A DNA stretch of 64,000 bases from the NCBI GenBank assembly GCA_001828855.1, contig MHZT01000003.1:1-64000 (forward strand), written 5' to 3'. The stretch is from Rhodobacterales bacterium RIFCSPHIGHO2_02_FULL_62_130. GTDB taxonomy: Bacteria > Pseudomonadota > Alphaproteobacteria > Rhodobacterales > Rhodobacteraceae. The notes beneath the pieces are model-generated. The model did no database searches. It was not told where the DNA came from and saw only the letters and a program-made list of their open reading frames with translations. This document shows positions 4,377-57,985 of this stretch, in pieces (within the stretch, counting starts at the first letter, position 1; every line of letters starts with the position of its first letter). A program made the position numbers and the translations under genes.

Positions 4377-5027
4377 ATGCCGATCAAACCCCGCCTTGCA
4401 GATCCCAACGCCGCCGCACATGAGCGGCTTTACCGCACGCTGCGCCAGCAGGTGATGCATGGTGAATTGGCCCCCGGTCAGGCCGTTACTCTGCGTGGTC
4501 TGGCCGAGCAATTCGGCATGTCGATGACGCCCGCCCGCGACGCGGTGCGGCGTCTGGTGGCGGAGGGGGCATTCACGATGTCCTCGTCGGGGCGGATTTC
4601 CACGCCGGAACTGACGCCGGAACGGATCGAGGAACTGGCCGCGATCAGGGCCATGCTGGAACCGGAGATGGCCTCGCGCGCGCTGCCCCGCGCGCATTTC
4701 GCGCTGATCGATAGGTTGGCTGCGATCAACGCGCTGAACCAAGAGGCGGTGATGAATCAGGATGCGGTGGGCTATGTCCGCACCAATCTGGAGTTTCACC
4801 GCACGCTGTATCTGCGTGCCCAGACGCCTGCGATGCTTGCGCTTTGCGAGACGGTTTGGCTACAGCTTGGGCCTACGATGCGGGCGCTCTACCAGAAATT
4901 GCGGCGGCGCGACATGCCGCAGCATCACCGGATGATTCTGGCGGCCCTGCGCGCGGGGGATGAGCCGGGCCTGCGGCTGGCGGTGCGGACGGATGTGACG
5001 CAGGGGCTGCGGCATCTGGCAAGCTAG
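4377..5027 (+). CDS. GntR family transcriptional regulator (FCD domain)
   Basis: A 216-residue regulator. Residues about 10-72 form the winged helix (HERLYRTLRQQVMHGELAPGQAVTL, then LAEQFGMSMTPARDAVRRLVAEG), the hallmark of GntR proteins. Residues about 80-210 are the all-helical FCD ligand domain, with an HRTLY metal-site segment and a second His cluster (QHHRMI). Its ligand cannot be read from the sequence. It lies upstream of and in the same direction as an intradiol dioxygenase gene, so an aromatic acid or ring-cleavage product is a possible effector; this is inference. A TTG at 4341 is an alternative start overlapping the protease stop. Confidence 0.88.
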   Translation: MPIKPRLADPNAAAHERLYRTLRQQVMHGELAPGQAVTLRGLAEQFGMSMTPARDAVRRLVAEGAFTMSSSGRISTPELTPERIEELAAIRAMLEPEMASRALPRAHFALIDRLAAINALNQEAVMNQDAVGYVRTNLEFHRTLYLRAQTPAMLALCETVWLQLGPTMRALYQKLRRRDMPQHHRMILAALRAGDEPGLRLAVRTDVTQGLRHLAS

Positions 5028-9686: not shown

Positions 9687-12641
<2,955 letters not shown>

Positions 12642-12711
12642 GTCTTGCCTCCCTGTGATGCGGCCCGAGGGGCCAAGGCGGCGGGGATAGCCCCCACCGC
12701 CCCAGATCAAA

Positions 12712-13892: not shown

Positions 13893-15086
13893 TTATCCCT
13901 TGACGGCCTTGACGATCTTTTGCGCCGCATCCGACAGGTTGTCGGCGGCGATCACGTTCAGGCCCGAATTGCGGATGATGTCCTTGCCCAGCTCGACGTT
14001 GGTGCCTTCAAGGCGCACCACCAGCGGAACCTTCAGGCCGACTTCTTTCACAGCCGCGATCACGCCTTCGGCGATGATGTCGCAGCGCATGATGCCGCCG
14101 AAGATATTTACAAGGATGCCTTTGACGTTGGGGTCAGAGGTGATGATCTTGAACGCCTCGGTCACTTTTTCCTTGGTGGCACCACCGCCGACGTCAAGGA
14201 AGTTCGCCGGTTCCGCGCCGTAAAGCTTGATGATGTCCATCGTGGCCATCGCAAGGCCCGCGCCGTTCACCATGCAGCCGATCTCGCCATCCAGCGCGAT
14301 GTAGTTCAGATCGAATTTGGAGGCGGCGAGTTCTTTGGGGTCTTCCTCGGTTTCGTCGCGCAGGGCGGCGATGTCGGGGTGGCGGTAGATGGCGTTGCCG
14401 TCAAAGCTCATCTTCGCGTCAAGAAGTTTCAGGTTGCCGTCGGTCATCACCACAAGCGGGTTGATCTCGAGCATCTCCATGTCTTTTTCGATGAAGAGTT
14501 TGTAGAGGTTCTTCACGATGCCGACGCATTGCTTGACCTGATTGCCTTCCAGACCCAGCGCGAAAGCAACGCGGCGGCCGTGGAAATCCGACAGGCCCGA
14601 AGCGGGATCGACGGTGAAGGTCAGGATTTTCTCGGGCGTGTTGTGGGCCACGTCTTCGATCGACATGCCGCCCTCGGTGGACACCACGAAGGACACGCGG
14701 CTGGTGGCGCGGTCGATCAGAATGGCCAGATACAGCTCGCGCGCAATGTCGCTGCCGTCTTCGATGTAGATGCGGTTGACCTGCTTGCCAGCCGGGCCGG
14801 TCTGCACGGTGACAAGGGTGCGGCCCAGCATCTGACGGGCAAATTCGGCAGCCTCACCGACCGAACGGGCAAGGCGGACGCCGCCTTTTTCACCGGCTTC
14901 GGGTTCGACAAAATGGCCTTTGCCACGGCCACCGGCGTGGATCTGCGCCTTGACCACCCAGAGCGGGCCATCGAGTTCACCGGCAGCGGTCTTGGCCTCT
15001 TCGGCCTTGGTCACGGCGCGGCCATCGGACACCGGGATGCCGTAGCTGCGTAGCAGTGCCTTGGCTTGGTATTCGTGGATGTTCAT
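13893..15086 (-). CDS. sucC: Succinyl-CoA synthetase beta subunit
   Basis: A 397-residue ATP-grasp subunit. It opens with [12 protein letters not shown] and the family's [14 protein letters not shown] nucleotide-binding segment; further on come [18 protein letters not shown] and FLDVGGGA, all SucC hallmarks. It pairs with SucD. It is the first gene of the sucC-sucD-sucA-sucB run, and the upstream gap carries a twin GTGATCAC element that also occurs upstream of sdhC. Confidence 0.97.
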
Positions 15087-15179: not shown

Positions 15180-15213
15180 TTTGTGATCACACGAAAATTT
15201 TCTGTGATCACAA
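15180..15213. promoter_or_regulatory. Twin GTGATCAC palindrome upstream of sucC
   Basis: Two perfect 8-bp palindromes GTGATCAC (15183-15190 and 15204-15211), each flanked by T/A to read TTGTGATCACA and TGTGATCACAA, lie 21 bp apart centre to centre around an AT-rich spacer (ACGAAAATTTTCT). The element sits about 95-125 bases upstream of the sucC start. A degenerate half (GGGATCACA) follows at 15159-15167. The same layout with the same 21-bp spacing occurs at sdhC. It looks like an operator for two dimers on one DNA face; the cognate protein is unknown. Confidence 0.75.
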
Positions 15214-15238
15214 GCGCGATTTTGTTAACGCAAACGGC

Positions 15239-23547: not shown

Positions 23548-24291
23548 ATGCGCCGCCTTTTCTTGCTTGCCCTGCTTGCCTTTGCTGCGCCCGCCGCCGC
23601 CTTCGAGATGCCCGAAGATCAGGATGCGGCGGATTTCGTCACCGCCAATGTGATCTCGACCTTTTATCACGAGCTTGGCCACGGGCTGATCGATGTGCTG
23701 CAACTGGCGGTGCTGGGGCGCGAGGAAGACGCCGCCGACACGCTGTCGGCCGTGCTGATGCATCAGGTCTGGGATGAGGAATCGGCCACCACGCTGGTTT
23801 ACGGCACCGCAAACGCCTTCTGGCTTTATGCAAACGAGGCAGAACAGCAGGGCTATGAGACTGCCTATTGGGACGAACACAGTCTTGATATGCAGCGCTA
23901 TTACAATCTGGTGTGTCTGTTCTACGGGGCCGATCCTGATCTGCGCGAAGATGATGCGGTCGAGTTGGAACTGCCAGAGGGGCGGGCCGAACGCTGTCCC
24001 GAAGAATATGCCTTGGCCGAAGAGTCCTGGGGGGCAATGCTGGCGGGGCTTGAACCGGGCAAAGATGCCAAGGGACTGGTGATGCAAGGCGACACATCCG
24101 ACCCGCTGGTAGCGCTGCTGGCAGAGGAGGTAAGCACCATGAATGCAAGCTATGCGCTGCCCGAAGAGATCACCGTGCAGGTGGCCGAATGTGGCGAAGC
24201 CAATGCGTTTTATGATCCGTCCGAGAAATCCATCACCTTTTGCTGCGAATATGCCGATGACCTTTTGCGGTTGTGGCAGGCGCAACAATAG
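23548..24291 (+). CDS. Exported DUF4344 putative metallopeptidase
   Basis: A 247-residue protein with a signal peptide (RRLFLLALLAFAAPAAAF). The segment FYHELGHGLIDVLQLAVLGREEDAADTL, split across residues about 35-63, contains the zinc motif HELGH and the downstream EEDAAD stretch of DUF4344. Five Cys in the C-terminal half may form disulfides. It probably acts in the periplasm; the substrate is unknown. Of two adjacent ATGs the second is better spaced from GGAGG. It is upstream of and in the same direction as the sdh operon. Confidence 0.85.
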   Translation: MRRLFLLALLAFAAPAAAFEMPEDQDAADFVTANVISTFYHELGHGLIDVLQLAVLGREEDAADTLSAVLMHQVWDEESATTLVYGTANAFWLYANEAEQQGYETAYWDEHSLDMQRYYNLVCLFYGADPDLREDDAVELELPEGRAERCPEEYALAEESWGAMLAGLEPGKDAKGLVMQGDTSDPLVALLAEEVSTMNASYALPEEITVQVAECGEANAFYDPSEKSITFCCEYADDLLRLWQAQQ

Positions 24292-24297
24292 GTAAAT

Positions 24298-24332
24298 TTT
24301 GTGATCACGCCAATTTTGCGCGTGATCACAAA
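24298..24332. promoter_or_regulatory. Twin GTGATCAC palindrome upstream of sdhC
   Basis: A perfect 13-bp inverted repeat TTTGTGATCACGC / GCGTGATCACAAA with a 9-base spacer. Each arm contains the self-complementary GTGATCAC (24301-24308 and 24322-24329), centre to centre 21 bp. It begins 6 bases after the upstream stop codon and lies about 150-185 bases before the sdhC start, in the only long gap of the region. The layout equals the one upstream of sucC. Confidence 0.78.
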
Positions 24333-24481
24333 GTGGAAAATATGCCGATGATAGCGGCAACATCATGCCGCAGATGCACAGACGCGCGTGACAGGCGCGA
24401 ATTACGCGCTATTGAAGTAAGTAGAACAGACTGCGCGCGCCGACCCATGGCATGCCGTCAGCGACAAAAGAGGGAACCGAT

Positions 24482-24865
24482 ATGGCCGAAGTGAAGCGGG
24501 TCGAACGACCCCTGTCCCCGCACCTGCAAATCTATCGTCCGCAACTGACCTCGATCACCTCGATCCTGACGCGGATCACCGGCAATGCGCTGATCGTGGG
24601 CGTGGCGCTTGCGGTATGGTGGCTGCTGGCGGCGGCGGTGTCGGATGAATATTTCGCCACGGCGAACTGGGTGGCCACAAGCTGGCTTGGCGATCTGGTG
24701 TTTGCCGGATCGGCCTGGGCGGTGTGGTATCACTATCTGGCGGGGCTGCGGCACCTGTATTTCGACGCGGGTCACGGGCTTGACATCGCCACCGCAGAAA
24801 AGCTGGGCTGGGCCTGCATCATCGGTTCGGTCGTGCTGACCGTTGCCACCATCGTGATCGTGTAA
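24482..24865 (+). CDS. sdhC: Succinate dehydrogenase cytochrome b556 subunit
   Basis: A 127-residue membrane anchor with three hydrophobic helices. The N-terminus RPLSPHLQIYRPQLTSITSI is the SdhC signature, including Ser and Arg near the quinone site, and HYLAGLRHLYFDAGHGL holds the His that ligates haem b. It anchors SdhAB and passes electrons to ubiquinone. The ATG follows GAGGGAACCGAT, and sdhD starts 10 bases downstream. Confidence 0.96.
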   Translation: MAEVKRVERPLSPHLQIYRPQLTSITSILTRITGNALIVGVALAVWWLLAAAVSDEYFATANWVATSWLGDLVFAGSAWAVWYHYLAGLRHLYFDAGHGLDIATAEKLGWACIIGSVVLTVATIVIV

Positions 24866-24875
24866 GGGGGCGGAC

Positions 24876-25247
24876 ATGCGCTATCTGACAGACCGCAAGC
24901 GCGCCGTGGGCAAGGGTGCCTCGCACACCGGCACCGCGCATCACTGGTCGATGACCGTTTCCGCCGTGGCACTGGCCTTCATGGTGCCGACGTGGGTTTA
25001 CATCTTTGGCCATGCGCTGGGCCAATCCCGCGCCGAAGTTGTGGAAACCTTCTCGCACCCGTTCCCTGCGATCCTGACCGCGATGGTTCTGGTGGTGGGG
25101 ATGCGGCATTTTGCCAAGGGTGCCACCATGATGATCGAGGATTATGCCCACGGCACCGCCCGTAAAATCGGCATCCTGACCATCTATTCGCTGTCTTCCG
25201 TGATTGCCGCGACGGGGCTTTACGCCCTGATCCGCATCGCGCTTTAA
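24876..25247 (+). CDS. sdhD: Succinate dehydrogenase membrane anchor subunit
   Basis: A 123-residue protein with three membrane helices (about residues 24-46, 60-80 and 95-118), basic N-terminus [15 protein letters not shown], the family's [19 protein letters not shown], and a central [19 protein letters not shown] in which the His and Asp-Tyr are the haem and quinone site residues. It forms the b-type anchor with SdhC. Confidence 0.95.
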
Positions 25248-25257
25248 GGTGTCTGAC

Positions 25258-27060
25258 ATGACCGCTTATCCGTATGAAGTGCATGACTATGATGTGGTTG
25301 TGGTGGGGGCTGGCGGCGCTGGCCTGCGCGCCACGCTGGGCATGGCCGAGCAAGGGCTTCGCACCGCCTGCGTGACCAAGGTTTTTCCGACCCGTTCGCA
25401 TACCGTGGCCGCACAGGGGGGCATTGCCGCGTCTTTGGGCAACATGGGGCCGGACTCGTGGCAATGGCACATGTATGACACCGTGAAGGGGTCGGACTGG
25501 CTGGGCGATACCGACGCGATGGAATACCTTGCGCGTGAAGCCCCCAAAGCTGTGTATGAGCTGGAGCATTACGGTGTGCCGTTCTCGCGCACCGAGGAAG
25601 GCAAGATCTACCAGCGCCCCTTCGGTGGCCACACCACCGAATTCGGTGAAGGCCCGCCGGTGCAGCGCACCTGTGCAGCGGCCGACCGCACCGGCCATGC
25701 CATCCTGCACACGCTTTACGGCCAATCGCTGAAGAACAACGCCGAATTCTTCATCGAATATTTCGCCATTGACCTGATCATGACCGACGGCGTTTGCACG
25801 GGCGTGGTGGCGTGGAAGCTGGACGATGGCACGATCCATGTGTTCAACGCCAAGATGACCGTGCTGGCGACGGGCGGCTATGGCCGTGCCTATTTCAGCG
25901 CGACTTCGGCCCATACCTGCACCGGTGACGGTGGCGGCATGGTGGCGCGGGCTGGCCTGCCCTTGCAGGATATGGAGTTCGTGCAGTTCCACCCGACCGG
26001 CATCTACGGCTCTGGCTGCCTGATCACCGAAGGCGCGCGGGGCGAGGGCGGCTATCTGACCAACTCGAACGGCGAACGCTTTATGGAGCGTTATGCGCCC
26101 CATTACAAAGACCTGGCGCCGCGCGATTACGTCAGCCGCTGCATGACGATGGAAATCCGCGAAGGTCGCGGCGTGGGCGCGCATGGCGACCATATCCACC
26201 TGAACCTGAGCCACCTGCCCAAGGCCACGCTGGATCTGCGCCTACCCGGCATTTCGGAATCGGCCAAGATTTTCGCCGGTGTCGATCTGCAAAAAGAGCC
26301 GATCCCCGTGCTGCCGACGGTTCACTACAACATGGGCGGTATTCCCACCAACTACTGGGGCGAGGTGCTGAACCCGACGGCGGAAAATCAGGACGCCACC
26401 GTTCCGGGCCTGATGGCTGTGGGCGAGGCGGGCTGTGCCTCGGTGCATGGTGCGAACCGTCTGGGGTCAAACTCGCTGATCGACCTTGTGGTGTTTGGCC
26501 GTGCCGCCGCCATCCGCGCGGGCGAAATCGTGAACCCCAAGGAACGCGCTGGTGACGTGAACCGCGCCGAGGTGGACAAGGCGCTGTCGCGCTTTGACGC
26601 CACCCGCCATGCCAATGGCGCGATCCCGACTGCCGATCTGCGGCTTGAAATGCAGCGCACCATGCAATCGGATGCCGCTGTGTTCCGGACAGAAAAGACG
26701 CTGGCCGAGGGTGAGGTCAAGATGACCGCAATCGCCGGAAAGATGGGCGATCTGAAGGTGACCGACCGCAGCCTTGTCTGGAACAGCGACCTGATGGAAA
26801 CGCTGGAGTTGCAAAACCTGATGCCGAACGCGCTGGCCACGATCTATGGCGCGCATGCCCGCACCGAAAGCCGCGGCGCGCATGCCCATGAAGATCACCC
26901 GACGCGGGACGATGCGAACTGGCGCAAACACTCGTTGGCGCATGTCGATGGCAACAAGGTCGCGCTGTCCTATCGCGCGGTGCATACCGATCCGCTGACC
27001 ACCGAAGCCAATGGCGGGATTTCGCTGAAGAAAATCGCGCCAGCCGAGCGGAAATTCTGA
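25258..27060 (+). CDS. sdhA: Succinate dehydrogenase flavoprotein subunit
   Basis: A 600-residue FAD subunit that oxidises succinate to fumarate. The FAD Rossmann motif [12 protein letters not shown] is at the N-terminus, the covalent FAD site is SHTVAAQGG, and further catalytic elements are [21 protein letters not shown] and the C-terminal [10 protein letters not shown]. The ATG is placed after AAGGTG; a GTG nine bases upstream is possible. The stop overlaps the start of a lipoprotein gene, so sdhA and sdhB are separated by three other genes in the same operon. Confidence 0.97.
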
Positions 27061-27374
27061 TGCGTGCGCTGGTCATCCCTGCGCTGATGCTGCTGGCGGC
27101 CTGCGATACGCAGGCGCTGACGGACAAGGCGTTGCGGCGTGCGGCGGAATCGGTGGTGACACCCGTGGTCAACCGCGACATGCCGGCGGCGGTGGCCGAA
27201 ACCGCCACGCGCTGCATCCTTGATGCCGCGTCCAAATCGGAAATCGAAGGTCTGGCGCGGGATGTCGGGGTTGAGGCGGGAACGCTGACTGTCGCCAATA
27301 TCCGCGCCATAGCCAGCCGTCCTGCCGCCGCCGCCTGCTTTGCAGCGGGCGGTGTGCCGCCACTTCGGGGATGA
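27060..27374 (+). CDS. Small lipoprotein between sdhA and sdhB
   Basis: A 104-residue protein with a lipoprotein signal (LVIPALMLLAAC, lipobox LAAC at about residue 15). The mature part is helical with two further Cys. No function known. The ATG overlaps the sdhA stop (TGATG), implying translational coupling, and the 3' end overlaps the next lipoprotein start. Confidence 0.75.
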   Translation: MRALVIPALMLLAACDTQALTDKALRRAAESVVTPVVNRDMPAAVAETATRCILDAASKSEIEGLARDVGVEAGTLTVANIRAIASRPAAAACFAAGGVPPLRG

Positions 27375-27676
27375 AGATGAAGCATTGGACCCTTGCGCTT
27401 GTTTGCCTTGTGCCGCTTTTGGCTTGCGGCCCTGTGCCTGTGGCGCAGGCCGAAAGATCCTGCCTTGAGCGGGCGCGTCTGGCGCAGCAACCGCGCGGCA
27501 CCATCACGGTCGGCGGGACCTCTGAAGGCAAGCTGGCCGGTGGGCTGGAATTGACGGTTTCGTCAGATTATCTGACGGGCCGCGATCCGTCTGAGGTGTT
27601 CAATAGCTGCGTGAAGGCGCAATCGGGTGAGTTCCCGACGCGCCCGCTCTATGATCAACCGGGTTGGGTGCGCTAG
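27371..27676 (+). CDS. Second small lipoprotein between sdhA and sdhB
   Basis: A 101-residue protein with a lipobox (LVCLVPLLAC) near residue 19, followed by a short mature domain with two Cys (SCLERARL and NSCVKAQ). Its length and gene position suggest a small periplasmic lipoprotein; function unknown. Start and upstream stop overlap as ATGA. An in-frame ATG at 27377 is an alternative start. Confidence 0.72.
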   Translation: MKMKHWTLALVCLVPLLACGPVPVAQAERSCLERARLAQQPRGTITVGGTSEGKLAGGLELTVSSDYLTGRDPSEVFNSCVKAQSGEFPTRPLYDQPGWVR

Positions 27677-27679
27677 GCG

Positions 27680-28849
27680 ATGTCCGACATCCTGTTGCAA
27701 TTTGACGAGGTTGACGTGGTTCCGACCACGGGCTTTGCCAAGCATATTGCAACGGGCGGACCGGTCTGGCCGGAGTTCGAGCATCAGGTCGATGCGCGGC
27801 ATTGTCGGGGAGAGGTTCCGGTGGATAGCCTCCCCGCGCGGCGCGATGCGGTTGCGCGGATCACGACTCCGGCGGTTTGGGGTGGCATTCTGGACCGGCA
27901 TTTCGGGCATCTGGTGGCCGAGCATCTGCCGCGCCTGCCCCATTCGCTGCGCGAACGCCCTGACGATCTTTATCTGTTCACCATCGAGCCGGGTCTGACC
28001 GAGGCCGATTTGCCAAGCCATATCTGGGACTTGCTGGCGTGGTATGGGGTCGCGCGCGCGCAGGTGCGGATCGTGACCGAACCGCTGCGCGTGGCCTGTC
28101 TGCGTGTGGCGCCTCAGGCTGAGATGTTGCCCTTGGTCGCGCCCTCGCACAGCTATCTGGCGCTTCTGGAGGCGCGGGCGCAGGCCAATGCCCTGACCTC
28201 CGATCTGAACGAGGTGCTTTACGTCACGCGCAGCGGTCTTGTGGCCGAAGGGCAGGGCGGCCATGCCGGTGAAGGCTATCTGGTGGAGCGGTTGCGCGAT
28301 CAGGGCGTGGCGGTGATGGACCCGTCCTGCCTGCCGTTGCGGGCGCAGTTGGCGGGCTATGCCGGTGCGGCCAATCTGGTCTTTGCCGAAGGCTCGGCGG
28401 TGCATGGGCGACAGATTCTGGGGCGTTTGCCGCAAGAGATCCATGTCCTGCGCCGCAGGCCGGGGCGGTCGGTCGCGCGTGCGATGTTGCGACCGCGCTG
28501 CACGCGCCTGACCTATCATTCCACCAGTGCGGCGCTGTTGACGGATACGTTCCCCAATGGTCGCCCGCGCCCCGGATCGGCCGCCGCGATCTATGACCGC
28601 CATGTGCTGTTTTCCGCCTTTGCAGCACTTGGTGTCGATCTTTCCGAAGGTTGGGACGAGGGTGATTTTCACGCCGCCCAAATCGACGATCTGCGGGGCT
28701 GGATTGCCCATCACGCCCCTTCACCTGCGCAACTTGACGCCCATCGCAGCCTTCTGGCCGGCCTTGGGCTTGATCTTGATGCCCTTACCGCATTGCCCGC
28801 CCCCATTGCTTTGCCCGGTTCCGCCCCCGTGGCCTCCGGCGCTGTCTGA
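27680..28849 (+). CDS. Glycosyltransferase family 61 protein
   Basis: A 389-residue protein of the GT61 (DUF563) type. [20 protein letters not shown] is the family's conserved block, followed by LYVTRSG and a C-terminal [20 protein letters not shown], typical of the acceptor/donor domain. Members transfer sugars to surface polysaccharides or lipids. It begins 3 bases after the second lipoprotein stop and ends 11 bases before sdhB, so it is embedded in the sdh operon. Acceptor and sugar are unknown. Confidence 0.82.
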
Positions 28850-28860
28850 AAGGAAGACCC

Positions 28861-29637
28861 ATGGTCCAGTTTACCCTTCCCAAGAATTCCAAAGTCCGCA
28901 CCGGCAAGACCTGGCCCAAGCCGGATGGCAAGAATGTGCGGAAGTTCCAGATCTACCGCTGGTCGCCCGATGATGGCGAAAACCCGCGTGTCGATACCTA
29001 TTTCGTCGATATGGACAAATGCGGCCCGATGGTTCTGGACGCGCTGATCAAGATCAAGAACGAGATCGACCCGACGCTGACCTTCCGCCGGTCCTGCCGT
29101 GAAGGGATTTGCGGGTCTTGTGCGATGAACATCGGCGGCATCAATACGCTGGCCTGTATTTACGGGCTGGACGAGGTGCGGGGCGATGTCAAAATCTATC
29201 CGCTGCCGCATATGCCGGTGATCAAGGACCTGATCCCCGACCTGACGCATTTCTACGCCCAGCACGCCAGCATCATGCCGTGGCTGGAAACCAAGACCAA
29301 CCGTCCGGCCAAGGAATGGCGTCAGTCGATTGATGATCGCAAGAAACTGGACGGGCTTTATGAATGTGTGATGTGCGCGTCTTGCAGCACGTCCTGCCCG
29401 TCCTACTGGTGGAACGGCGATAAATATCTGGGACCGGCGGCCTTGCTGCACGCCTATCGCTGGATCATCGACAGCCGCGACGAAGCGACGGGCGAGCGTC
29501 TGGATGCGCTGGAAGATCCGTTCAAGCTGTATCGCTGCCACACCATCATGAACTGCACCAAAACCTGCCCCAAGGGGTTGAACCCCGCCAAGGCGATTGC
29601 GGCGATCAAGCAGATGATGGTTGAACGGGTGGTCTGA
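28861..29637 (+). CDS. sdhB: Succinate dehydrogenase iron-sulfur subunit
   Basis: A 258-residue subunit carrying three iron-sulfur clusters: the 2Fe-2S ligands in [14 protein letters not shown] and NTLACI, then [16 protein letters not shown] and [17 protein letters not shown] for the 4Fe-4S and 3Fe-4S clusters. It links FAD in SdhA with the quinone at SdhCD. It has its own ribosome site (AAGGAAGACCC) although it is cotranscribed with the three genes inserted after sdhA. Confidence 0.97.
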
Positions 29638-29644
29638 GGCCTGT

Positions 29645-29671
29645 GCAGCCCCTCTGGATCAGGGGGGCTGC
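29645..29671. terminator. Hairpin between sdhB and the convergent LuxR-like gene
   Basis: GCAGCCCC / GGGGCTGC arms (with one extra G on the right side) and a short loop form an 8-bp stem directly after the sdhB stop. The next gene converges, so it may serve both. No T-run on either strand. Confidence 0.5.
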
Positions 29672-29687
29672 GATGCCAAGGCTTCGG

Positions 29688-30164
29688 CTATTTCAGCGCC
29701 CGGAAGTCCTCTTGAACAGCGGCGGGCAAATGTTCGAACCCGTCGGTCAGATCGTGGATGCGGTCGATTATGCCGCAAATTTCGGCGCGCTGGTCTGTCG
29801 AGAAGGGCTGGCTGCGTGTCATGCTGGCAAGGCTGCGCGACGTGGCCGGACCGACAGCATAGGTCCAGCCATTGGTCAGCCCGTAGTCGCGCGCGGCCTT
29901 CAGAACGCCCGCCTCATCCTGCGGCTCAAGCTCGGCCCAATCCATCGCGCCGGTATGGGCCAATCCCCAATGCACCGTCGGATCAGCCAGCATATAGCCG
30001 TTTTCGCTGTATTGATCGATCCAGTCGGCGGCATAGGTCTGGAACAACAGGGTCGGGCGCGTGTAGCGGATATGCGCCGCCAAAGCGAAACCGGAGTCGC
30101 AAATACCTGCAAGCTTTGACAGCAAGGCAGAGACTTCGTTCACCTTTTGCGTGTTCTCTAGCAT
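29688..30164 (-). CDS. Autoinducer-binding-domain protein without DNA-binding domain
   Basis: A 158-residue protein made only of the LuxR-type autoinducer-binding domain. The conserved residues are present with the spacing seen in TraR: Trp48 and Tyr52 (WIDQY), Asp61-Pro62 (ADPTVHW), Trp76, and Gly95. The chain stops at ..DFRALK where LuxR proteins continue with a linker and helix-turn-helix; the 50 bases after the stop contain no such domain. It is divergent from a full-length luxR gene. It may bind an acyl-homoserine lactone and either sequester it or form inactive heterodimers, as the truncated TraR homologue TrlR does in Agrobacterium; that is inference. A GTG at 30173 is an alternative start. 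Confidence 0.85.
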   Translation of the reverse strand: MLENTQKVNEVSALLSKLAGICDSGFALAAHIRYTRPTLLFQTYAADWIDQYSENGYMLADPTVHWGLAHTGAMDWAELEPQDEAGVLKAARDYGLTNGWTYAVGPATSRSLASMTRSQPFSTDQRAEICGIIDRIHDLTDGFEHLPAAVQEDFRALK

Positions 30165-30269: not shown

Positions 30270-30881
30270 ATGACGCAGTTACAGGCCATGACCAATCAGA
30301 TCGCCTTGATTGCCCCCGCAGGCTTTTACGTTGCCTTGCGGGTCGGCTTTTCATTCCCGGAAGAAGAACTGAATTGTTTGCCCGAAACTTGGGTGGAATT
30401 CTATACCACGCAGGGTTTGGTCGTGCATGATCCGGCGATGAAATGGGTTTACGGCCATATCGGCGCAGTGCGGTTTTCCGAAATGGGCTTGCCCGATCCG
30501 CAACAGGTGCGCGCCCATGCCGCTGTCTTCGGTTTGGGCCACGGGCTTGCCATCAGCCATATGACCAAGGCCGACAAGGGGCGGCGCAGCTATGGTCTGT
30601 TCTTCCGCGACGACCGCGATTTCGAATCGGTCGAGGTCGGGGTTTTGCAGGGCATGCTGGAAAAGTTGCATGCGGGCAGGGAGGAAGAACCGACCCTGAC
30701 CGCTGCCGAAGTCGAAGCGCTGAAAATGCAGTCCGAAGGCCTGCGCCTGAAGCAGATTGCCGCGCGACTCGGCATTTCGGAAAGCGCCGTCAAGGCGCGC
30801 CTAAACAACGTGAAACGCAAATTGGGGGCCAAGACCCAGTCTCAGGCGGCATCTATTGCTGCATCTCGTCGTATTCTCTGA
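30270..30881 (+). CDS. LuxR family quorum-sensing regulator
   Basis: A 203-residue regulator. Residues 1-120 form the autoinducer-binding domain with Trp41, Tyr45 and Asp54-Pro55; the position of TraR Trp85 is Phe69 here. Residues about 137-200 hold the LuxR helix-turn-helix (LTAAEVEALKMQSEGLRLKQ, then LGISESAVKARLNNVKRKLG). It lies 131 bases upstream of a LuxI-type synthase in the same direction, so it is most likely the cognate receptor. ATG at 30288 is an alternative start. Confidence 0.92.
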   Translation: MTQLQAMTNQIALIAPAGFYVALRVGFSFPEEELNCLPETWVEFYTTQGLVVHDPAMKWVYGHIGAVRFSEMGLPDPQQVRAHAAVFGLGHGLAISHMTKADKGRRSYGLFFRDDRDFESVEVGVLQGMLEKLHAGREEEPTLTAAEVEALKMQSEGLRLKQIAARLGISESAVKARLNNVKRKLGAKTQSQAASIAASRRIL

Positions 30882-31012
30882 CAGGGCACTGACTTTTGGA
30901 TAGGGAATCCTAGGGGTTTTCTACCTAAAGGGTGTTTTTTCTAAGGCAAATCAACTTTCGGGGCATTACCTTGAAAGAACGCTGCCGCAGAACCTGCATT
31001 GGGGAGATAATC

Positions 31013-31690
31013 ATGCACGGAATTACCTTCGATTTTTGTGACCTTCACCGCCATGGAAGTGCCTTTGTGGACTTTCTGGCCCTTCGCAAGAAGATGTTCG
31101 TCGACACCCTTGGCTGGGATGTGCCGCATAATGAACGGCTGGAGATGGACCAGTATGACACGCCGCTGGCCCATTATTCTGTCGCGGTGATGGACGGGCA
31201 GGTGGTGGGGGGCGCGCGCGCCATGGCCACAACCGCCACATGGGGCGAGCATACCTATATGCTGCGCGACGCCCATTCGGGCAAGCTGCCGCATATCCCG
31301 CCGCAGGTGATGTCGGTGGAAATCGCATCGCCCTTGGTGTGGGAATGCACGCGGTTGGTGATCTCGGACGATCTGACCACGGCGGCCGAGCGCACCGAAT
31401 GTCTGACGCTGATCGTTGACGGTCTGGTGGAAATGGCGCGGAACAACGGGGCGGATACGCTGATCAGCCTGTCTCCACTGCCCTTCATGCGGGCGATGCG
31501 TCAAGTCGGCTATGATGTCGAACGCTTGGGCGAGGCCTATCGCAACGACGAGGACGGGCGGCTTTACGGCGTGCTGAAGATGCCGGCCGAATTCTCGCGC
31601 GCCCGGCGTGAGCGTATGCGGCCAATCCCGTTTCCGGCTTGGGCTGTGGCACGGCCTGCGGTTCCGGCCTTGGTCGAGGCCTTTGGCTAA
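31013..31690 (+). CDS. Acyl-homoserine-lactone synthase (LuxI family)
   Basis: A 225-residue autoinducer synthase that joins an acyl group from acyl-ACP to SAM and releases an N-acyl-homoserine lactone. The invariant residues of LuxI proteins are present: Arg25, Phe29, Trp35, Asp46 and Asp49 (MDQYD), Arg69, Glu111 and Arg114 (WECTRLV). Acyl chain length cannot be read from the sequence. The ATG follows GGGGAG; an ATG at 30932 gives an unlikely N-terminal extension. The upstream 131-base gap should hold its promoter, but I find no convincing lux box by eye. Confidence 0.93.
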   Translation: MHGITFDFCDLHRHGSAFVDFLALRKKMFVDTLGWDVPHNERLEMDQYDTPLAHYSVAVMDGQVVGGARAMATTATWGEHTYMLRDAHSGKLPHIPPQVMSVEIASPLVWECTRLVISDDLTTAAERTECLTLIVDGLVEMARNNGADTLISLSPLPFMRAMRQVGYDVERLGEAYRNDEDGRLYGVLKMPAEFSRARRERMRPIPFPAWAVARPAVPALVEAFG

Positions 31691-56965: not shown

Positions 56966-57985
56966 TCACCCCGATTGCGCTTCGTCCCGTTCGTAGGCTT
57001 CGATCACCCGCGCCACCAAGGGATGCCGCACGACATCTTTCGAGGTGAAATAGTTGAAGGAGACCCCCTTCACCCCTGCCAGAATCCGCTCGGCATCGGC
57101 CAGACCGCTGGCCGTGCCGCGTGGCAGATCGACCTGCGTGCGGTCGCCAGTGATCACCATGCGCGATCCCTCGCCCAGACGGGTCAGAAACATCTTCATC
57201 TGCATGGTGGTGGCATTCTGCGCCTCGTCCAGCACCACAAACGCATTCGACAGGGTGCGCCCGCGCATGAAGGCCAGCGGCGCAATTTCGATCCGCTTTT
57301 CTTCCATCAGCTTTTGCACCTGCTTTGCGGGCAGGAAATCGTTCAGCGCGTCGTAAAGCGGCTGCATATAGGGGTCGATCTTTTCCTTCATGTCACCGGG
57401 CAGGAAGCCCAAACGCTCGCCTGCCTCGACCGCAGGGCGGGACAGCACGATCCGCTCGACCGCGCCCGAGATGAACATCGTCACGCCCACCGCCACCGCC
57501 AGATAGGTTTTGCCGGTGCCGGCAGGGCCGATGCCAAAGCCCAGTTCATTGGCGAACAGATTGGCGACATAGGCCTTTTGCGCCTCGGTGCGCGGCTCGA
57601 TCGGCTTTTTGCGGGTGCGGAGTTCAACCCGTCCGCCTGTGAACATCTCAATCTGTTCGGCACCGCCGCTTCGCATCACATCGGGCATGGCAACACCCAA
57701 GCGCATCGCGCCGTCAATATCGCCCGCAACCACGCCGCGGCCCGATTCCAACCGCGCGTAAAGCGCGCGCAGCACCGCTGCCGCCTGCTCGCGTGCGCCC
57801 TTGTCCCCGATCACCGACAGCCGGTTGCCACGGCGCAGCACATGCACGCCCATCTGATGCTCGATCTGCGCGAGATTGCGGTCAAACTCGCCGCAAAGAT
57901 CGATCAGAAGGCGATTATCCGGAAATTCGAGAACGGTTTCCACCATATCCTCACGGGTCGGGGGGGTCAGCGCGCTGATGCCCAA
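56966..57985 (-). CDS. phoH: PhoH-like ATPase
   Basis: A 339-residue protein with an N-terminal KH-like region (residues 1-110) and a PhoH-type P-loop ATPase domain. Walker A is IGPAGTGKTYLAVAVG, the Walker B/motif region is FVVLDEAQNATTMQMK, and ITGDRTQVDLP follows. PhoH proteins act in RNA metabolism, often with YbeY, which is the next gene here. A phosphate-starvation link is only historic. Confidence 0.92.
   Translation of the reverse strand: MGISALTPPTREDMVETVLEFPDNRLLIDLCGEFDRNLAQIEHQMGVHVLRRGNRLSVIGDKGAREQAAAVLRALYARLESGRGVVAGDIDGAMRLGVAMPDVMRSGGAEQIEMFTGGRVELRTRKKPIEPRTEAQKAYVANLFANELGFGIGPAGTGKTYLAVAVGVTMFISGAVERIVLSRPAVEAGERLGFLPGDMKEKIDPYMQPLYDALNDFLPAKQVQKLMEEKRIEIAPLAFMRGRTLSNAFVVLDEAQNATTMQMKMFLTRLGEGSRMVITGDRTQVDLPRGTASGLADAERILAGVKGVSFNYFTSKDVVRHPLVARVIEAYERDEAQSG

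Follow-up and report, generated by a model that had tools for sequence, protein, structure and literature searches.

In Rhodobacter sphaeroides, the palindrome GTGATCAC is reported among the binding sites of the activator AkgR, and a GntR-like regulator of the Pseudomonas simiae deoxyribonate cluster (PS417_07240, 32% identical to AkgR) has been proposed to bind the same palindrome (excerpts of PMC6365646). In the same vein, the GntR-family protein RSP_0981 is predicted to regulate sucCD (RSP_0967-6), sdh (RSP_0974-6) and the 2-oxoglutarate dehydrogenase genes (RSP_0965-62) (excerpts of PMC4344238). Here, we analysed a stretch of 64,000 nucleotides from Rhodobacterales bacterium RIFCSPHIGHO2_02_FULL_62_130 (contig MHZT01000003.1, positions 1 to 64,000; hereafter the window), in which two exact copies of GTGATCAC separated by 13 bp lie upstream of both sdhC and sucC, the first genes of the sdh and suc/odh operons. 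We consider it highly probable that this twin palindrome serves as operator for an orthologue of AkgR of the GntR/FadR type (with an FCD domain), which would co-activate sdhCDAB and sucCD-odh. Direct observations are the site and its phasing, the fact that it is confined to two operons, and its co-occurrence with a regulator gene of the window.

A twin palindrome at two operons

The two elements are laid out as follows.

24301..24329, no strand assigned: candidate twin operator GTGATCAC-N13-GTGATCAC upstream of sdhC, with outer flanks TTT/AAA at 24298-24332
15183..15211, no strand assigned: candidate twin operator GTGATCAC-N13-GTGATCAC upstream of sucC, from the window sequence and a pair search of the assembly

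The copies occupy 24301-24308 and 24322-24329 at sdhC, and 15183-15190 and 15204-15211 at sucC, in each case with a spacer of 13 bp and a centre-to-centre distance of 21 bp, exactly as a first-pass annotation of the window had described. The TTTG/CAAA flanks that it also claimed are found on the outer sides of the sdhC twin but not at sucC, where the outer flanks read TTTG/CAAG (+ strand), and the inner flanks of both twins depart from this rule. The sdhC twin ends ~153 bp upstream of the ATG at 24482, and the proximal palindrome of sucC begins 104 bp upstream of that gene's ATG (15086).

Such an arrangement is hardly expected by chance. The window holds five copies of GTGATCAC (the fifth is a single copy at 57150-57157), compared with a mean of 0.86 and a maximum of 4 in 100 shuffles. 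In the whole assembly (4.97 Mb, 53 contigs), the palindrome occurs 181 times, from which ~0.2 pairs would be expected at spacers of 0-30 and 0.007 at a spacer of exactly 13. The search for exact pairs with spacers of 0-30 returned two, both with a spacer of 13 and located at sdhC and sucC, and the other 177 copies lie outside them. The exact twins that the first-pass annotation had envisaged at mdh or ccr are thus absent from the assembly, the search having been made for pairs and not for single sites.

Conservation of the twin in relatives

Upstream regions were compared in 80 named sdhC loci, which lean to close relatives because they rank highest among 497 confirmed matches. At least two exact GTGATCAC were present within 400 bp upstream of sdhC in 77 of these 80 loci, forming a 21-bp pair in 67 and a 20-bp pair in 10; in two further loci (L006 and L048), a single exact copy is accompanied at 21 bp by a copy with one mismatch. 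A readable sucC start was available in 34 of the 80 loci, all of which carry at least one 21-bp pair upstream of it, and 45 of the 46 successive spacings measure 21 bp. The sucC element even extends to three or four copies in 11 of the 34 loci (L017, L022, L033, L040, L041, L044, L046, L050, L054, L063 and L065), with even 21-bp steps in 10 of the 11; L017 also contains one 26-bp step. The 80 loci add up to 1.37 Mb and contain 125 pairs at 20-21 bp: 77 at sdhC, 45 at sucC and 3 elsewhere, the latter starting at most 200 bp from a locus edge, where the adjoining gene would be cut off.

This conservation extends over the family. In a survey of 295 Rhodobacteraceae genomes representing 294 genera, a GTGATCAC pair with a spacer of 0-30 was found in 267 genomes versus a single one for the reversed pattern. 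Among the first 75 pairs listed (37 genomes), the centre spacing was 21 bp in 65, 20 bp in 5 and different in the last 5 (13, 18 twice, 27 and 31). We fetched 30 pair loci. All 27 with 20-21 bp spacing adjoin a match to SdhC, SucC or, in one case, SucA; for the remaining 3, which are spaced differently, none of the six proteins tried gave a match. In a class-wide draw restricted to the exact 13-bp spacer, the twin was detected in 6 of 385 genomes, i.e. in 4 of 5 family members and in 2 of 380 others (G440 and G495). The first-pass annotation had named absence or random placement in relatives as what would disprove its view. With pairs in 267 of the 295 genomes and 122 of the 125 pairs of the named loci at sdhC or sucC, the data go the other way, and its proposal of a conserved, phased and operon-specific operator-like element common to the suc/odh and sdh operons stands (77/80 sdhC and 34/34 sucC loci).

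Six genomes with extra pairs (G265, G135, G263, G069, G125 and G159) were considered as possible cases of regulon growth, a view that we rejected since each shows the 20-21 bp spacing at just two places. In four of the genomes the two places share a contig and in the other two they do not; one of the two in G135 is a 21-bp triple, and the remaining pairs are off 20-21 bp. The 2.6-Mb genome G265 is peculiar in having ten close GTGATCAC pairs, of which eight are off 20-21 bp, six of these eight on contigs C6 and C9. A further variation concerns nine sdhC loci, eight of them titled Roseovarius, where the 20-bp spacing is accompanied by a third GTGATCAC 101-111 bp further upstream (L052, L061, L064, L066, L070, L071, L075, L076 and L078).

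A candidate regulator in the window

One of the 19 FCD matches of the genome falls within the window, beyond the suc/odh operon.

4377..5027, + strand: candidate AkgR orthologue with GntR-type winged helix and FCD domain, 216 amino acids (Pfam GntR and FCD)

This protein belongs to the GntR/FadR (FCD) group, as both the N-terminal GntR winged helix (PF00392, 46.7 bits for a cut-off of 27) and the C-terminal FCD domain (PF07729, 67.2 bits for a cut-off of 24.3) are present. Its relatives, scored at E <= 1e-40, occur in 271 of the 295 family genomes and track the twin closely: both are present in 262 genomes, the twin only in 5, the protein only in 9 and neither in 19 (Fisher p = 6.5e-19, uncorrected for shared ancestry, in a draw of 295 genomes from 294 genera). 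When six weak protein matches are scored absent, the counts become 260, 7, 5 and 23, respectively (p = 1.7e-23). Besides, the orthologue lies 1.4-4.3 kb beyond sdhB in three named relatives (L026, L043 and L058), in keeping with the small locus-tag distance between RSP_0981 and sdh. Upstream of the orthologue, 5 of the 30 loci compared show a GTGATCAC that starts 13-17 bp ahead of the position matching the first methionine of the in-window protein in the alignment. In G187, a GTGATCAC pair with a 5-bp spacer is found 64 bp ahead of the orthologue's aligned part, the alignment starting at residue 11. Such sites are expected if the protein reads the motif and controls itself in some species. Taken together, synteny and co-occurrence indicate that the in-window protein is likely to be the AkgR orthologue.

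The genomes with the protein only and those with neither were inspected further. Among the nine with the protein only, G040 and G291 display a 15/16-base twin with 21-bp spacing at sucC, a match that none of 100 shuffles equalled; no close sucC was found in G147, G155 and G166; and G054, G122, G195 and G281 have weak protein matches (E from 6e-60 to 1e-42), with no twin at sucC in the three of them that have a close sucC. For the genomes with neither, the reading covered the region upstream of sucC and not of sdhC, and could be made in 17 of 19; in 15 of these, the best match was equalled by 10-98 of 100 shuffles. A three-mismatch search of the twin-negative genomes was set aside as too permissive (3-119 matches per genome).

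Genes around the two elements

The genes of the two operons are listed below; sdhD was named from its position and sequence, and its relatives adjoin sdhC in other genomes.

24482..24865, + strand: sdhC, first gene of the sdh operon (Pfam Sdh_cyt; start by reading of the sequence)
24876..25247, + strand: putative sdhD (open reading frame and translation)
25249..27060, + strand: sdhA (Pfam FAD_binding_2 and Succ_DH_flav_C)
28861..29637, + strand: sdhB (Pfam Fer2_3 and 4Fe-4S models)
13893..15086, - strand: sucC, first gene of the suc/odh operon (Pfam ATP-grasp_2 and Ligase_CoA)
9687..12710, - strand: sucA, 2-oxoglutarate dehydrogenase E1 (Pfam 2-oxogl_dehyd_N, E1_dh, Transket_pyr and OxoGdeHyase_C)

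The ATG at 24482 is the most likely start of sdhC as read from the sequence, an in-frame alternative at 24452 being the start in the list of open reading frames. The upstream neighbour of the sdhC gap is a gene for a DUF4344 protein that ends at 24291. Downstream of the sdhC twin, a profile over relatives shows a conserved GTGACA-N16-TATTGA-like pair, which may be suggested as a promoter. Between sdhA and sdhB (27060-28849), the open reading frames are not sdh genes; one looks by eye like a small lipoprotein gene and one gives a weak glycosyltransferase-61 Pfam match, below the cut-off. Just 3' of sdhB (30270-31690), a LuxR-type regulator-like open reading frame (by eye) is followed by an autoinducer synthase gene (Pfam Autoind_synth). 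Finally, a lactate/malate dehydrogenase of the window has Pfam support.

Proposed mechanism and competing explanations

GntR-family proteins act as dimers on short palindromes. One homodimer of the AkgR orthologue would thus sit on each GTGATCAC and, since a centre spacing of 20-21 bp corresponds to two helical turns, the two dimers would face the same side of the DNA. Bound upstream of the promoter, they may activate sdhCDAB and sucCD-odh jointly, which is the likeliest reading in view of the activator role reported for AkgR, and would tie the lower tricarboxylic acid (TCA) cycle, from 2-oxoglutarate to fumarate, to one regulator. What we infer is the binding of the twin by the in-window protein, same-face or cooperative binding, the effector and, for this species, the direction of control.

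Several observations weigh against assigning the twin to this AkgR orthologue. No GTGATCAC lies near the GntR/FCD gene of the window itself, and its orthology to R. sphaeroides AkgR is judged from synteny and co-occurrence. One of the 80 sdhC loci (L018) is without a twin, its best 20-21 bp pair matching 10 of 16 bases. The twin occurs without a detected orthologue in five genomes (G019, G096, G114, G256 and G264), and partial sucC twins that beat all 100 shuffles are present without the protein in G017 (13/16) and G157 (12/16). A simple promoter scan of the sdhC and sucC gaps also returned no consensus sigma-70 site. Finally, two FCD paralogues of the same genome count on this side too. The gene of one of them, L122 (contig C35, about 29184-29950), is preceded by a GTGATCAC 71 bp before its predicted start, so that more than one protein may read the motif, and the presence of the other, L124, is correlated with the twin, albeit more weakly than that of the in-window protein (p = 4e-5).

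With 19 FCD matches in the genome, it is conceivable that the twin is read by another GntR/FCD paralogue, for example of the L124 or L122 type. However, at E <= 1e-40 the L122 type is found in 9 of the 295 genomes and the L124 type in 149, the latter lacking in 122 of the 267 genomes that bear the twin, whereas the in-window protein is missing from just 5 of them. Both types, the only paralogues among the 19 FCD matches that this profiling covered, were therefore rejected for their poorer fit to the phyletic pattern, and we regard a paralogue as an unlikely reader of the twin. Apart from this question, L122 shows a near copy of the palindrome, TTGATCAC, 15 bp on from its upstream GTGATCAC, and the divergent open reading frame is ABC transporter ATPase-like (by eye).

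A regulator of a different family, either CRP/FNR-like or undescribed, appears very unlikely. The inverted letters TGTGA/TCACA have a superficial likeness to CRP half sites, but the half sites here abut without a central spacer, the gene of a GntR protein co-occurs closely with the twin, and the motif is already reported for AkgR (excerpts of PMC6365646). Hardly credible, in our view, is the idea that the pair is no operator at all and would act as an RNA hairpin, in which the distal and proximal palindromes pair around a 13-nt loop, or as a methylation- or restriction-type repeat. Indeed, although GTGATCAC is self-complementary and includes GATC, 70 pairs out of the 75 listed have a spacer of 12-13 nt, and in some species three or four copies follow each other at 21-bp steps, as is more readily explained by helix phase than by a loop; moreover, pairs at 20-21 bp are limited to the two operons.

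A wider reading of the twin, to which we give an even chance, is that one switch, made of two dimers in helical phase on GTGATCAC pairs at 20-21 bp, sets the lower TCA cycle in most Rhodobacteraceae. It would have arisen in the family, shared the fate of its regulator through retention and loss, and been extended at sucC in some genera to arrays of three or four dimers at 21-bp steps. If so, phasing, and hence a cooperative dimer-dimer contact, would be the specificity code that separates two true targets from many single sites. The system thereby offers a way of asking how a regulator might choose two targets among ~180 identical palindromes by means of the 20-21 bp phasing. It would also tie a readily seen DNA feature to a regulator already named and take a regulon known from one laboratory species to ~90% of the 295 family genomes (267).

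Comparison with known systems

The first-pass annotation had left the regulator unnamed and taken it as undescribed. This part is superseded, since AkgR is a named activator reported with GTGATCAC (excerpts of PMC6365646) and RSP_0981 is predicted to act on the same targets (excerpts of PMC4344238). In the literature on AkgR, CceR, RSP_0981 and the motif, available as excerpts and with the primary AkgR paper (Imam 2015, mBio) outside the search, no account of strict phasing or 21-bp arrays was found. Within these sources, the strict 20-21 bp phasing and the existence, in some species, of three- or four-site arrays are therefore the part for which we have seen no earlier account.

The operator of the LacI-family regulator CceR was also considered as a conserved partner element at sucC. 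Its predicted motif is the inverted repeat [AGT]GTT-N6-8-AAC[ACT] (RSP_1663; excerpts of PMC4344238). This candidate was rejected for lack of conservation, as the repeat appears in 3 of the 34 sucC upstream stretches of the relatives, once in each and at scattered positions. Beside the sucC twin of the window (15220-15235), the sequence TTTTGTTAACGCAAAC is a near match to such a repeat.

Like the candidate regulator proposed here, PS417_07240 is GntR-like and is associated with the same GTGATCAC palindrome, but the excerpted account places a single palindrome upstream of a deoxyribonate catabolic cluster, in contrast to the phased pair at TCA operons. We take McbR of E. coli, which differs in operator and biology, to be a relative of the in-window protein in sequence only. 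Its chain (PDB 4p9f) is the closest solved one by sequence (E = 1.1e-21, residues 20-205).

The AkgR regulon of R. (Cereibacter) sphaeroides remains the nearest likeness. It shares with the window the GTGATCAC palindrome in promoter regions, with AkgR as the reported activator, and, if RSP_0981 is AkgR, as we presume, also the sucCD, 2-oxoglutarate dehydrogenase and sdh targets. RSP_0981 likewise belongs to the GntR family, its predicted targets are the operons that bear the twins here, and its locus tag places the gene near the suc and sdh operons. The differences are that the species is probably not that of the window and that the excerpted accounts of the regulon leave the twin 20-21 bp layout unmentioned. 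To conclude, the twin palindromes very probably represent a new instance of the known AkgR regulon in another member of the Rhodobacteraceae, and not the mark of a new regulator.
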